Source: Deltaproteobacteria bacterium (GTDB taxonomy: Bacteria; Bdellovibrionota; JACOXK01). From it: a stretch of 64,000 nucleotides of DNA. A program made the translations under genes and the position numbers. Position 1 is the stretch's first letter, and every line of letters begins with the position of its first letter. The notes beneath the pieces are model-generated. The model searched no databases and was not told the origin of the DNA. It worked only from the letters and a program-made list of their open reading frames with translations. The stretch is taken from the NCBI GenBank assembly GCA_016186995.1, contig JACPKQ010000027.1, positions 13,545 to 77,544 on the forward strand, given 5' to 3'. Below are positions 17,956 through 52,302 of the stretch, piece after piece.

Positions 17956-18031
17956 TGTTATTGAAATTGCTAGCTTTTTTTCTATTCAATAAGTTTGCTC
18001 CTTGAAATGATTACAAACTAACTCATAGTGG

Positions 18032-18362
18032 GCCAAGCCAGATTATCTTCCGACACGACCCTCTGTAAGTACTATCCCTATCTCTCAGAATAAAACATTC
18101 GAGTCCATGAGAGAGAGGGGGATTCACCCTCACCTCAGATCCTCTCCCCTCGAGGGAGAGGAAGGAAAGGAGAGGGGGACAGAATTCGAGTCTATGTGAA
18201 GATGGGCTGGAGGTTTTGAAGGGGAGGATCCACACCGGGCGGAGGGGCCACTGAGGAACCTCCAGGCCATCAAGAACTTAAGTATCGAAAAAACACCCTC
18301 CCTACTCAGAACCAAGGTTGTTGGAAGAAGATGGCTCCCGGACAGTGTAAACTGGCTTGGCC
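18032..18362. other. GC-rich gene-free element closed by an 11-bp inverted repeat
   Basis: This 331-base stretch has no convincing gene and is much richer in G+C than its surroundings. Its ends are exact inverted repeats (GGCCAAGCCAG at 18032-18042, CTGGCTTGGCC at 18352-18362). Just inside lie TCTTCC (from 18047) and GGAAGA (about 18323), which could extend the closing helix. Internally there is CTGGAGGTT/AACCTCCAG (18207-18215 with 18257-18265), and a near-direct repeat ATTCGAGTC(C/T)ATG at about 18098 and 18184 flanking a palindromic repeat. It may be a structured RNA or a small mobile element. I searched by eye for RNase P, tmRNA and SRP signatures and found none. Confidence 0.5.
18123..18163. 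repeat. Palindromic repeat, same family as in murE
   Basis: It has CTCTCCCCTCGAGGGAGAG preceded by TTCACCCTCACCT. The arrangement matches the murE insertion at 13422-13461. It sits inside the element at 18032-18362 between two copies of ATTCGAGTC(C/T)ATG. Confidence 0.7.
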
Positions 18363-21902: not shown

Positions 21903-21931
21903 CTTAACATAAATTAATTACAAATGTTAAG
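21903..21931. promoter_or_regulatory. Dyad: candidate enhancer for the sigma-54 promoter at 22012
   Basis: CTTAACAT (21903-21910) and ATGTTAAG (21924-21931) form an exact inverted repeat with a 13-base spacer. It lies about 80-110 bases upstream of the sigma-54 promoter, where NtrC-family activators usually bind. No other gene starts in the gap. Confidence 0.55.
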
Positions 21932-22011: not shown

Positions 22012-22027
22012 TGGCACCTGCTTTGCA
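22012..22027 (+). promoter_or_regulatory. Sigma-54 promoter
   Basis: TGGCACCTGCTTTGCA matches the -24/-12 consensus TGGCAC-N5-TTGCA exactly. Transcription would start near 22038 and leave a leader of about 87 bases before the gene at 22125. The 336-bp gap 21789-22124 otherwise holds only the dyad at 21903. Confidence 0.85.
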
Positions 22028-22124
22028 TTGAGCACAGATCGGTTCTCGTTATTAACGAAATAAGGTATCAGCTTCAGCCTTTTGCCACACTGAAGTTGTC
22101 CGACACAGACACGAAGGAGGTCTT

Positions 22125-22916
22125 ATGAGTCGAAAAATCATTTCGGGATTAGTGGTCTTCCTGTTTCTTATGACCGCACACGCAGTGGAGCGTGATTATT
22201 ATGGCGTTCCGCTTCCAAAAAAAGAACTTACCGTTTTTGATCTATCTAATGCTTCTGATGATGTGGATCAAGAATTAGGTTCTTTTGAATCAACGGTCAG
22301 AGGTGCAGGATACACTGGTGAAGTTCTTATGGATGGAACTATCGGTGGTGAAGAAACTTATGTTGTTATCGGTTTGAATGATACAGCAGAGTTTGTTGAC
22401 AGTCGCTTACGTGATAGCGGATCTGCTTTTAAAGGCATGATTTTTGATGCTCCTGAACACCTAGAAGAAGCATTCTTAGACAGTCCTGCTCGTACTGGAA
22501 GAAAAATCGGAAGAAAAGCAGCCAAAAACTGGAACAGAGCTGTAAGCTGGCTTGATGAACACATGTCTGAGGCTGGAAGAAGCTTAGAAGTTCACAAAGC
22601 TCATGGTCTTCCATTAGCTGTAGGACGTGCTGTTGTTGCTGTTACAGGAAGTACTGCTGTTCTTGTTCTAAGACTCCCTGTTGAAGGAGCCATTGAACTT
22701 ACAAAAGGGCTCTTAAGAAGTACATGGGCTCTTACAAAAGATCCAGTATCTGGAACTCTTCACTTAGGTACTGCTGCTGCTAGTGGTGCTTATGGTGCTG
22801 GTAGTTCTGTTGCTGGAGCTGTTGTTTCTGGCAGTATTACACTTGTGGCTGCCACATTAGAAGGAGTTGCATTGCTTTTCACTGCACCAAGAAAACTCTT
22901 AAAAGTATTGTTCTAA
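22125..22916 (+). CDS. Exported protein of unknown function, sigma-54 controlled
   Basis: I do not recognise a family. The 263-aa protein starts with a clear signal peptide (MSRKIISGLVVFLFLMTAHA, likely cleavage after Ala20). The mature N-terminal half is acidic and mixed. A basic stretch (about 125-140) follows, and the last 80 residues are Gly/Ala/Val/Ser-rich and hydrophobic (for example AAASGAYGAGSSVAGAVV), resembling glycine-zipper or membrane-inserting segments. The gene has a strong ribosome site (GGAGG), a consensus sigma-54 promoter and its own terminator, so it is a single-gene unit likely to be strongly expressed. Its base composition is somewhat GC-richer than its neighbours. Confidence 0.85.
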   Translation: MSRKIISGLVVFLFLMTAHAVERDYYGVPLPKKELTVFDLSNASDDVDQELGSFESTVRGAGYTGEVLMDGTIGGEETYVVIGLNDTAEFVDSRLRDSGSAFKGMIFDAPEHLEEAFLDSPARTGRKIGRKAAKNWNRAVSWLDEHMSEAGRSLEVHKAHGLPLAVGRAVVAVTGSTAVLVLRLPVEGAIELTKGLLRSTWALTKDPVSGTLHLGTAAASGAYGAGSSVAGAVVSGSITLVAATLEGVALLFTAPRKLLKVLF

Positions 22917-22945
22917 TCTTAACTAAACACAAGCAATTAAACCTG

Positions 22946-22973
22946 AAAAAGGCGCTCATGGGAGCGCCTTTTT
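22946..22973 (+). terminator. Rho-independent terminator
   Basis: A perfect 12-bp stem (AAAAAGGCGCTC with GAGCGCCTTTTT) and a 4-base loop, ending in a T run. It lies 30 bases after the exported protein gene and near the end of the convergent gene at 22987. Confidence 0.9.
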
Positions 22974-22986
22974 CTTTGGGGTTCCC

Positions 22987-24024: not shown

Positions 24025-24080
24025 TAAGCTTGTGTTGTGGGGGATTTCCAAAAATTAAATCTTAACATTACGAAGTGACT

Positions 24081-25688
24081 ATGAACGAAGTATTAAGTTT
24101 CTTTCCATCTTTCGATGGAGAAAAGCTATCTCATGAAAATAAAGATAAACTTTCTTGGTTTATCTTTTTAAGACTTGGAGTTATAACCTCACTTCTTGCT
24201 TTTTTTATATTTTTTAAACTCAAAGCTACAACTACCCACCTCACAACAGAAATTTCAAGAAATCTGATTGCTGTCTATTTCCTTTTAACTATAACTTACC
24301 TCGTCAGTTTCTTTTATGCGATTTATCTTAATCGAGTTAAAAATGTTGTTGCTTATATCAGTTCTCAAATTGGTTACGACATTATTTTTGTCACAGCTTT
24401 GATCTATCTTTTAAACACCCCTGAAAGTATTTTTAATATTCTTTATTCAGTTACTATTATTTTAGCGAGCCTCGTTTTTCAAAGGTCAGGTGCCCTTCTT
24501 ACAGCTTGTTTTTGTACTATCTGCTTTAGTCTTTATCTCATTTATAATCCCATTATTGATTCACAACGTCATCTCTATGTTCTTTTTATTAATAATTTTA
24601 CTTTTTTTCTTGTGGCTATTGCTAGTGGTACCATGGCAGACCAACTTAAAAACATTGGTATAAAACTTAAAGAAAAAGAAAGTTTTACAGATGCTATTTT
24701 AGATAATATGTCCAGTGGTCTTTTAACTATTAACGCTCAAAGTGAAATCACTTATTATAATGCCGCAGCCCAAGAAATCACAGGTAAATCCTATCAAGAA
24801 GTGTATAATTATAAACTTTCTCAAATTTTTCCAGAATTTGCAGAGTTTTTAAGAAAAAAAGTTGATCCCAAAACACGCCCTGAAATTAAATATATGCGAG
24901 AGGGAAGTATACTTTCTTTAGGAATAGTCTCTTCTCCACTCAAAGACCACGAAAACGCAACCAAAGGACAAATTATTATTTTTCAAGATCTCACTAAACT
25001 TAAAAAAATGGAAGAAGAAATGAGAGTGAGCGACAAACTTGCTGCCGTTGGAAAATTAGCAGCAGGTATTGCCCATGAAATTAGAAACCCACTTGCTTCT
25101 ATGAGTGGTTCTATAGAAATGCTTAAGACAAACATTCACATGTCTCAAGAAGATAAAAAGCTCATGGATATTGCTCTTAAAGAAACTGAAAGGCTTAATA
25201 CTTTGATTACTGAATTTCTTACTTTTGTAAAGCCAAGCGTTCTTCGAAAAGAAAAAATTAAAATTAAAGAATATATAGAGAACATGATAGCTACTTTTAA
25301 AATTAACCCTCAGTTCAAAAAAAATATTTCTATAACTACCAAAGGAAAAGATATCGAATTTTATTTTGATCCAGAAAGGGGTAAGCAAATTCTTTGGAAT
25401 CTTCTTATTAATGCATCTCAAGCCATGAGAGAAGGGGGTACAATAGAAATATCCTGGAATGAAGATCAAAATAAAAATATTCTATGTATCAAAGATCATG
25501 GGTGTGGCATCCCGGAAAATATTCGTGAAAAGATTTTTGATCCCTTTTTTACAACTAAAGAAGGAGGAACAGGGCTCGGCCTTGCAACGGTTTATAAAAT
25601 TATTGAAGCCCATGGCGGCCGTATTGATGTCACAAGTAAAGTAAATCAAGGAACAACTTTTAATATCGAGTTTCCAAACAAGGAGTAA
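24081..25688 (+). CDS. pilS: PilS/NtrB-like sensor histidine kinase
   Basis: Membrane sensor kinase of about 535 aa. Six hydrophobic segments (about 28-185) form a PilS-like sensor region, followed by a PAS domain (about 203-305), a HisKA domain with the phospho-accepting His in [16 protein letters not shown] (residue 334 if counted from the upstream GTG), and an HATPase domain with [17 protein letters not shown] and [13 protein letters not shown]. The start is ATG 24081 or GTG 24075. Partner response regulator, pilin-like and prepilin peptidase genes follow directly, which supports PilS rather than nitrogen control. Confidence 0.88.
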
Positions 25689-25692
25689 ATTT

Positions 25693-27075
25693 ATGTCACA
25701 TGCAAGAATTCTTGTCGTTGATGATGAACAAAGCATCCGAGAGCTTTTAGAAATCATGCTTAAAAGAGAAAAGTATGATGTTGTCACTGCCGAAAATGGT
25801 AAAAAAGCTCTCAAAAAACTTGAGAAAGAAAGCTTTGATATTGTTATTACAGATATTCAAATGCCAGAGCTTTCAGGAATTGAACTACTTGAGAAAACCA
25901 AAAACATGAATGAAGACATCGTTGTTATGATGATTACAGCTTATGGTTCTACAGAATCTGCAGTTCATGCCATGAAGTTAGGAGCTTATGACTATATTAC
26001 AAAACCCTTTAAAGTAGATGAACTTAAAATTATTGTTAGAAAAGCCTTAGATAGTAGAAATCTTAAAAGAGAAAATATACAACTGAAAAAGGCATTAGAA
26101 TCAAAATATTCGTTCCAAAATATTGTTGGGAGTGCTCCTGTCATGGTGAAACTTTACGACATGATTGAAAGAGTTTCTCAAACAAAATCAAATATTCTTA
26201 TCACAGGAGAAAGTGGAACAGGTAAAGAGCTTATTGCTAAAGCCATTCACTATAATGGCCCACTTAAAGACAAACCTTTCGTGACCATTAACTGTGGGGC
26301 TATCCCAGAAAACCTTATGGAAAGTGAAATGTTTGGTCATAAAAAAGGGTCTTTCACAGGAGCTATTGTAGAAAAAACAGGGCTTTTTGAAATAGCTCAC
26401 AAAGGAACAATCTTTCTTGATGAGGTGGGAGATCTTCCACTTTCTATTCAAGTAAAACTTTTAAGAGCTATTCAAGAAAGAACATTTAGAAAAGTAGGTG
26501 GTACTCAAGATATTAGTGTTGATGTTCGAGTGATTTGTGCCACAAACAAAGATCTTGAAAAAGAAGTTAAAGAAGGCCGATTCCGAGAAGATCTTTATTA
26601 TAGACTCAACGTTATTCATCTTAATTCTTCCCCTTTAAGAGAAAGAAAAGAAGATATCCCAACTCTCACCCTTCACTTCTTAGAAAAATACAACAAAGAA
26701 TTTGGAAAGGATGTTAAAAAAATAAGTCAAGAAGCCATGGAAGCACTTAAAAATTATCATTTTCCAGGTAACGTAAGAGAACTTGAAAACATTATTGAAA
26801 GAACGGTAGCACTGACAGATAACCTCGCTATTCTTCCTGAACACCTTCCTCCTCAAGTGTTTAATTTACCTTCTGGAAACTCTTTGACTTCTTTAGGAGC
26901 TCTTAAAATTGGGGATGAACCTATTGATTTGGAGGGCATTGTAGGAAGAATTGAAAAAGATCTTTTAGTAAGAGCCCTTGCAAAAACAGGCGGGGTTAAA
27001 AAGAAAGCTGCTAAACTTTTAGGTATTAGCTTTAGATCGATGAGGTATCGACTTGAAAAACACAACATGGAATAA
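25693..27075 (+). CDS. pilR: PilR/NtrC-family sigma-54-dependent response regulator
   Basis: Three-domain activator of 460 aa. The receiver domain has phospho-acceptor Asp54 (VITDIQMPEL). The AAA+ domain has Walker A GESGTGKELIA, the sigma-54 contact loop GSFTGA (a GAFTGA variant), Walker B GTIFLDEVGDLP and an arginine-finger region. The C-terminal Fis-type helix-turn-helix (about 415-458) ends at KKAAKLLGISFRSMRYRL. It starts 4 bases after pilS. It is the only NtrC-family activator in the window, so it is a candidate regulator of the three sigma-54 promoters seen here; this link is inference. Confidence 0.93.
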   Translation: MSHARILVVDDEQSIRELLEIMLKREKYDVVTAENGKKALKKLEKESFDIVITDIQMPELSGIELLEKTKNMNEDIVVMMITAYGSTESAVHAMKLGAYDYITKPFKVDELKIIVRKALDSRNLKRENIQLKKALESKYSFQNIVGSAPVMVKLYDMIERVSQTKSNILITGESGTGKELIAKAIHYNGPLKDKPFVTINCGAIPENLMESEMFGHKKGSFTGAIVEKTGLFEIAHKGTIFLDEVGDLPLSIQVKLLRAIQERTFRKVGGTQDISVDVRVICATNKDLEKEVKEGRFREDLYYRLNVIHLNSSPLRERKEDIPTLTLHFLEKYNKEFGKDVKKISQEAMEALKNYHFPGNVRELENIIERTVALTDNLAILPEHLPPQVFNLPSGNSLTSLGALKIGDEPIDLEGIVGRIEKDLLVRALAKTGGVKKKAAKLLGISFRSMRYRLEKHNME

Positions 27076-50755: not shown

Positions 50756-52195
50756 TTAAAAGAGAATCTCTAAAAGCTCTTTTACACCGTCCCAATGGTA
50801 AGGTTCGCCACCTTCTTTCACAACTTCATTAAGAATATGGTTTGGGTCTTTAAAGTATCCATTAAGCCCTAGAAAATGTCCAAGCTCACGAGTTAAAATA
50901 CGAGTCATATCGTATCTTTCATCTGAATCTAAACACACATTTTCAGTACCTAATGAACCTTCTTTCAAAAAACTTTCAACATCTTGACGAACACAAAAAC
51001 CCTTTTCTTGATTCAGAATGAAAACATCTTTTTCTTCAAGCATAAGGTATTCATAAGTAAAAGACCCATGGCCTTGCTTAGAAATAGCGATTGGATCCGA
51101 TATTTTTCTCATATCATCTTTTTCCGGAAAGTTAGAAACTAAAAGCAAAGCATTAACTCCATCAGGATAAAGAACATGAGTGTTTCCAAGAGAAGCATTT
51201 AAAGACTCAACAAAGAACTGAATCCTACTTGGATCTTTTTTTGCTTCATCGTCTAACATTTTTTGAGTTGCTGCATCTTCGTCAAAACTTCTTAAACGAA
51301 CATGTGCCGGAAGAACTTTTTGCCATTCAGAAAGTGCATATTTTAAAGAAGCTCTGAAAAGTTCATTGCCTAAGATTTGTGAGTCCACTGCTAAATGAAA
51401 GCTTCTGTTCTGAGTTGGAAATTCTTCTGTATTTTCATTTGCCTTTGATGGATTTGTGATATCTCGTATTAAATCATTAAGCGCGCCACTACCTTGAGAT
51501 CTAAAAGATTTAATATTTAAAACGTCAGAAACTTTTGTTTTTAAACTGTCTGAAAGAAGATTGATTTCTTCATATGCATAACCATGAGTTGTTTCCTTCT
51601 TATAGAGATGCCAACCTTGAGCCACATTTTTACTAAACATAGATTGAACAACCTTCTCGTGTTTTCCAATTCTTTCTAAAGCTTCAAAAAGCTTTTGATA
51701 AAGTTGAGTAAAAACTAAATGGGTTGTTTCAAGTTGCTTGCGTGCTTCCAATTGTTCTTTTGTAAGTTGAGACAAGTCCCCCAGCCCCTCTCTTTCAAAT
51801 AAGTTAGAAATAAGACTTCTAAAATGATCAAGATGCTCTTGTTTCTGGCTCCAAAATTGCTGTTCTTTCTCAAGGCTTAATGCATCACTACTTTTTATAA
51901 GCTGATTAACATAATTACGGTAGGAATCCACATCAAATAATGAATTCAAAGCAGCTTCTAATTGAGCTATCGAAACATCACTTATATAAAATTCTTTATT
52001 GGGAATATTCTTTTCAATCTCTAAAACTCGATCGACTGTCGTTTTTAAAGCAGCAATCTTATTGTATTCTTCACTTAACACTACGTGAATGGCCTCTGTC
52101 TTTTTTTCGAGTGAAAATGATTGTTTTAATTTATCAATAGCACCACACGAAATAAAACCAAAACTTAACAAACCTAATATTAGAATTCTTCTCAT
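50756..52195 (-). CDS. Lipoprotein with degenerate metzincin motif
   Basis: A 479-aa lipoprotein. The signal peptide ends in FISC (Cys17) with Gly after it. The N-terminal half is helical. The C-terminal part resembles a metzincin protease region: RELGHFLGLNG (436-446) has the Glu, the second His and the Gly of HExxHxxGxxH, but the first His is Arg and the third is Gly, so zinc binding and catalysis are probably lost. It has a strong ribosome site (AAGGAG), a sigma-54 promoter at 52287 and its own terminator. It may bind protein or peptidoglycan; the real function is unknown. Confidence 0.8.
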   Translation of the reverse strand: MRRILILGLLSFGFISCGAIDKLKQSFSLEKKTEAIHVVLSEEYNKIAALKTTVDRVLEIEKNIPNKEFYISDVSIAQLEAALNSLFDVDSYRNYVNQLIKSSDALSLEKEQQFWSQKQEHLDHFRSLISNLFEREGLGDLSQLTKEQLEARKQLETTHLVFTQLYQKLFEALERIGKHEKVVQSMFSKNVAQGWHLYKKETTHGYAYEEINLLSDSLKTKVSDVLNIKSFRSQGSGALNDLIRDITNPSKANENTEEFPTQNRSFHLAVDSQILGNELFRASLKYALSEWQKVLPAHVRLRSFDEDAATQKMLDDEAKKDPSRIQFFVESLNASLGNTHVLYPDGVNALLLVSNFPEKDDMRKISDPIAISKQGHGSFTYEYLMLEEKDVFILNQEKGFCVRQDVESFLKEGSLGTENVCLDSDERYDMTRILTRELGHFLGLNGYFKDPNHILNEVVKEGGEPYHWDGVKELLEILF

Positions 52196-52286: not shown

Positions 52287-52302
52287 AGCAACCATCGTGC
52301 CA
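52287..52302 (-). promoter_or_regulatory. Sigma-54 promoter of the lipoprotein gene
   Basis: Minus strand TGGCACGATGGTTGCT fits TGGCAC-N5-TTGCW, with the required 10 bases between GG and GC. It leaves a leader of about 80 bases before 52195. Confidence 0.8.

Follow-up and report, generated by a model that had tools for sequence, protein, structure and literature searches.

A retained sigma-54 promoter candidate ahead of an orphan exported-protein gene in a 'Deltaproteobacteria'-type bacterium

An orphan gene in the 64,000-nt stretch of DNA analysed here (the window) probably forms a one-gene sigma-54 unit that would belong to a cell-exterior regulon and encode an exported, lineage-specific component of the envelope. 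The host is a small, AT-rich 'Deltaproteobacteria'-type bacterium. Four elements of this picture are established at the sequence level: the sigma-54 site, the excess of such sites over controls, retention of the site in an ortholog, and the gene unit (Table 1).

Table 1. Features of the orphan gene and its upstream region in the window
Feature	Position	Strand	Details
Dyad CTTAACAT-N13-ATGTTAAG	21903-21931	.	Candidate regulator site, about 120 bp upstream of the predicted start
Sigma-54 -24/-12 core TGGCAC-CTGCT-TTGCA (TGGCACCTGCTTTGCA)	22012-22027	+	GG at 22013-14, GC at 22025-26
Predicted leader, 87 nt	22038-22124	+	Start placed 12 nt after the -12 GC from promoter geometry
Shine-Dalgarno sequence AAGGAGG	22114-22120	+	4 nt upstream of the ATG
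Orphan exported-protein gene, 263 aa	22125-22916	+	ORF; signal peptide 1-20, hydrophobic 164-182 and 233-251
Intrinsic terminator hairpin with T-run	22945-22974	+	-22.1 kcal/mol, z -6.3

The sigma-54 core and its retention

A sequence-only reading of this DNA had claimed a perfect sigma-54 site. That claim holds: TGGCAC-N5-TTGCA is read at the position given in Table 1, is kept in the ortholog and belongs to a genome-wide excess of such sites (see below). The longer sigma-54 consensus is TGGCACG-N4-TTGCW, from which the core departs at base 7 only (C for G). The window contains two perfect core matches, this one included, and five sites when up to one mismatch is allowed, where 1.58 would be expected. 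The other perfect site (52287-52302, - strand) lies upstream of an orphan lipoprotein gene (50756-52195), whose predicted product, a lipoprotein of 479 aa, matches nothing in Pfam.

The only ortholog found (51-52% identity) is encoded at locus L003 of genome G001, with its 3′ end beyond the contig end. In this single ortholog, a perfect core, TGGCACACTCATTGCA, again stands upstream of the start (L003:1350-1365). Besides the sigma-54 site and the ribosome site, words common to the two upstream regions are almost all A/T-rich. Because the remaining upstream DNA has diverged between the window gene and L003, the sigma-54 site is the stand-out retained element.

The genome that contains the window (1.68 Mb, 30 contigs) has 26 exact matches to TGGCAC-N5-TTGC, compared with none for a reversed control pattern. 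Similar figures were obtained for G001-G007, seven genomes belonging to the same class or family, with 16-37 core sites vs 0-2 for the control. Other genomes in the phylum have a smaller excess, in some cases close to none (11 vs 8 in G038, 6 vs 5 in G041). A single rpoN was present in each genome of a set of seven searched for it, own genome included, and the own genome also yielded 11 Sigma54_activat matches, eight of them strong, corresponding to enhancer-binding proteins. Retention of the site in the ortholog, the genome-wide excess, rpoN and the enhancer-binding proteins together make sigma-54 control well supported. The core is very likely functional as a sigma-54 promoter and, judged by comparison with the ortholog, the predicted promoter is evolutionarily retained and of the ordinary sigma-54 kind. 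Sigma-54 promoters generally require an activator; the 'tight control' that had been suggested for this gene stands to that extent and has no further basis.

A candidate regulon directed at the cell exterior

Hydrophobic N-termini are more frequent behind the sigma-54 sites (20 of 26 ORFs) than among other ORFs of the window (21 of 46; Fisher p 0.009), in a comparison that uses a crude scoring rule and, as control, a single window rich in membrane proteins and holding one further sigma-54 target. In the same tally, site L059 of the own genome was not scored as exported, the script having chosen a late start, and L057 has no clear gene.

Pfam was run on the window gene product and on 20 of the 25 other downstream proteins (the products of L020, L028, L052, L056 and L057 were left out). 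The matches include LpxC, a sigma-70-family factor, a Kelch lipoprotein, a T2SSF protein, a GGDEF response regulator, an AMIN/STN secretin-like protein, a secretin, an AAT-type acyltransferase and an M6 peptidase. Several lipobox proteins or lipoproteins are also among the targets, and several of the lipoproteins have no Pfam match. Two perfect sites on contig 4 (L008:1501 and L016:1501) lie 21-27 bp upstream of lpxC and of the sigma-70-family factor gene, which suggests that sigma-54 feeds into both the synthesis of lipid A and a second sigma factor.

When the 26 own-genome downstream proteins were compared by blastp with those of G001 (a protein was obtained for 14 of its 16 sites), three pairs were found, the window gene and L003 being by far the strongest. 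Tallies of G001 upstream regions exclude duplicate loci, namely L011, which overlaps L003, and in some cases also L015, which overlaps L013. Since most of the 26 sites precede envelope-protein genes, we count the window promoter among those of a sigma-54 'cell exterior' regulon. The regulon, as predicted from these sites, probably comprises about 26 candidate promoters and is surface-directed, which is a known theme.

The transcription unit

Two further claims of the sequence-only reading, a strong ribosome site and a terminator belonging to the gene itself, were both borne out by the features listed in Table 1. The terminator hairpin indicates that the window gene is a single transcription unit. 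Rfam returned sub-threshold matches only, all around the terminator, and the fold of the leader is unexceptional (z 0.13). At the ribosome site, AAGGAGGT is common to the window leader and the ortholog leader. The suggestion that the protein is abundant gains nothing from codon use: by codon adaptation the gene ranks 19th of 47 ORFs, on an index that hardly separates ribosomal genes here.

The leader of the ortholog is longer than that of the window gene and contains a perfect palindrome of 46 bp (L003:1392-1437). The two palindrome arms of 23 bp recur as the termini of a 181-bp element at another place in G001 (L087, around 1501-1681), which is likely a small inverted-repeat mobile element. 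Because its arms bound that element, we read the L003 palindrome as the remnant of a mobile-element insertion.

The upstream dyad and the PilS/PilR neighbours

It had also been proposed that a dyad upstream of the promoter serves as an enhancer. The dyad itself is present, and in the 223 bp upstream no other perfect dyad has arms of at least 6 bp that include a G/C and a spacer of 3-14; the enhancer role fared less well, as no such dyad precedes the G001 ortholog and the chance level is about 10%. Perfect 8+8 dyads whose halves each carry two or more G/C, with spacers of 0-20, turned up in 9.9% of 1000 shuffles of the 223-bp region, and in 47% once the G/C requirement was dropped. Searching the genome for the dyad, a check proposed along with it, gave a single exact copy, at this locus, and the dyad as a whole is absent from the other 25 sigma-54 promoters of the own genome; no promoter of pilA was recognized.

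Parts of the dyad recur more widely. The octamer CTTAACAT occurs before four of the 26 sigma-54 sites (at -109, -98, -129 and -218) vs 0.4 expected, a count that concerns one among many words tested and owes one of its four cases to the window itself. Because other words equal or exceed its k-mer enrichment score, we treat the octamer as a lead only. With up to three mismatches the dyad matches 19 places in the genome, against seven for a control, and three of the three-mismatch matches (C1, C10 and C19) coincide with the edge of a repeat of about 190 bp that is present in many copies. This dispersed repeat has inverted repeats at its ends, a partial copy in the window (18030-18085) and full copies elsewhere (e.g. 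L026:856-1046). It gives 37 matches in the own genome, many of them partial, and none in G001 or G002; Rfam had no match in two loci carrying it. Taken together, the dyad is real but constitutes weak evidence for an activator site.

The dyad might alternatively be bound by a regulator of a class other than enhancer-binding proteins, such as a repressor dimer, or might be a product of chance or a relic, with sigma-54 control being a separate matter. To this we assign a low but appreciable probability. In its favour are the 21 bp (two helical turns) between the starts of the half-sites, the shuffling result and the matches at the repeat edge; on the other hand, no copy of the 190-bp repeat is listed at the dyad site and no particular repressor is indicated.

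The genes for PilS and PilR lie near the window gene (24075-27075), and it is conceivable, though clearly unlikely, that phosphorylated PilR binds the dyad and activates the window promoter. This proximity, the lack of any other such perfect dyad in the upstream region and the occurrence of the octamer before sigma-54 sites would all agree with such an arrangement. The half-site CTTAACAT is moreover found again at 24061-24068, 14 bp upstream of the start listed for the pilS ORF, perhaps by chance. However, G001 keeps both PilS and PilR, adjoining the same SDR gene as in the own genome, and its ortholog nevertheless has no dyad. The complete dyad occurs nowhere else in the genome, its chance level is near 10%, and the octamer count carries the limits given above. 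In addition, the N13 spacer of the dyad is wider than those of two inverted repeats described for NtrC-like activators, GCGCA-N5-TGCGC (PMC11841059) and yGTCA-N6-TGACr (PMC4641369). The idea of a PilR-like activator acting through the dyad thus found no support in either the ortholog or the other 25 promoters, and at least eight activators in the own genome are candidates for the window promoter.

Any lone motif match can be chance, but that the sigma-54 core is such a match, with the window gene read from another promoter, is very improbable given 26 sites vs 0 in the genome and the perfect core that stands in a similar position upstream of the ortholog.

The exported protein

Inspection and hydropathy identify an N-terminal Sec-type signal peptide (residues 1-20) with an AxA motif, and the junction is kept between the window protein (AHA followed by VERDYYGVPL) and the ortholog (AQA followed by VERDRYGVPL). 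Export, which the sequence-only reading had also put forward, is well supported by this predicted signal and its conserved junction. The Gly/Ala-rich hydrophobic C-terminus that it described is likewise seen: hydropathy marks residues 4-22 (the signal) and two stretches in the C-terminal half (164-182 and 233-251), and Gly and Ala make up 29% of residues 160-263.

Neither Pfam nor NCBIfam has a match for the window protein, and its best PHROG match has an E value of 0.38. A sequence search of solved structures gave nothing usable (best E 0.38), and no relative was found in viral contigs, plasmids or phages. An AlphaFold2 model built from a three-sequence alignment was worthless (mean pLDDT 32), and the membrane claim accordingly draws on hydropathy alone. 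By that measure the product is most likely a membrane-docked envelope protein.

Relatives and a fusion with a PLD-like protein

Relatives of the window protein are rare. A profile search found them in two of 368 genomes of the phylum, own genome counted. Genome contigs scanned with the single protein as query gave nothing, and a scan with the alignment gave two loci, both in one groundwater MAG that carries the label 'Deltaproteobacteria bacterium', with no relative beyond G001. The other G001 relative, at 26-28% identity, makes up the C-terminal portion of a PLD-like protein of 684 aa (L065:4597-6651). This protein has an N-terminal signal and two PLDc_2 (PF13091) stretches, in which both HxKxxxxD motifs are intact.

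Relatives of the PLD part occur in G002-G007, where matches end at about residue 424 and the open frames are 402-452 aa long. These class-mates yielded no relative of the window domain. In the own genome, the search for a PLD relative returned the window gene itself as sole match; Pfam shows no PLD domain in the window protein, and the HxKxxxxD motifs were seen only in the G001 fusion. With the PLD part standing alone in G002-G007 and the window domain occurring without PLD in the own genome, the two parts are separable. The fusion could be either an event in G001 or an old arrangement that was retained.

The PLD fusion offers a clue to what the orphan domain does. A speculative and rather unlikely extension would be that the window gene founds a lineage-specific, membrane-docking exported domain, which stands alone under sigma-54 here and was captured by a periplasmic PLD-like enzyme in the sister genome, the whole possibly being a signal-controlled module for membrane-lipid remodelling.

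Proposed mechanism

In the preferred reading, a one-gene sigma-54 unit, RpoN polymerase would bind the core at 22012-22027, and one of the enhancer-binding proteins of the genome would open the promoter. Transcription would begin near 22038 and stop at the hairpin (22945-22974). The product would be exported by Sec and cleaved after AHA, before VERD, and its hydrophobic second half may dock in or on the membrane. It would then act as a lineage-specific envelope component made in response to an environmental signal.

Comparison with known systems

As a promoter the locus is ordinary, and the system as a whole belongs to a known kind; its interest is in the small orphan family with its PLD fusion. 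The closest likeness to exported proteins with PLDc_2 (PF13091) is that the G001 relative forms the C-terminal part of such a PLD-like protein; unlike these proteins, the window protein lacks a PLD domain, and no PLD-like protein was found in the own genome.

Sigma-54 control is described for PilSR-PilA (PMC6058289). The window resembles that system in having a PilS/PilR pair near the gene and a promoter of the sigma-54 type, but it differs in that the product has no pilin family match and the candidate dyad is not conserved.

The broader parallel is with the sigma-54 'bacterial exterior' regulon theme of Francke et al. (PMC3162934), which also appears in the sigma-54 regulome of Desulfovibrio vulgaris (PMC4641369). 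Several targets here, the window gene included, differ from those regulons in being orphans of no known family; like them, the present set has -24/-12 sites before lipoprotein, LPS (LpxC), pili/secretin and other surface genes. The analysis supports the view that sigma-54 mainly governs the cell exterior, here in a lineage that has been little studied and is known through metagenome-type assemblies. It also yields 26 candidate promoters, several of them upstream of orphan lipoproteins.
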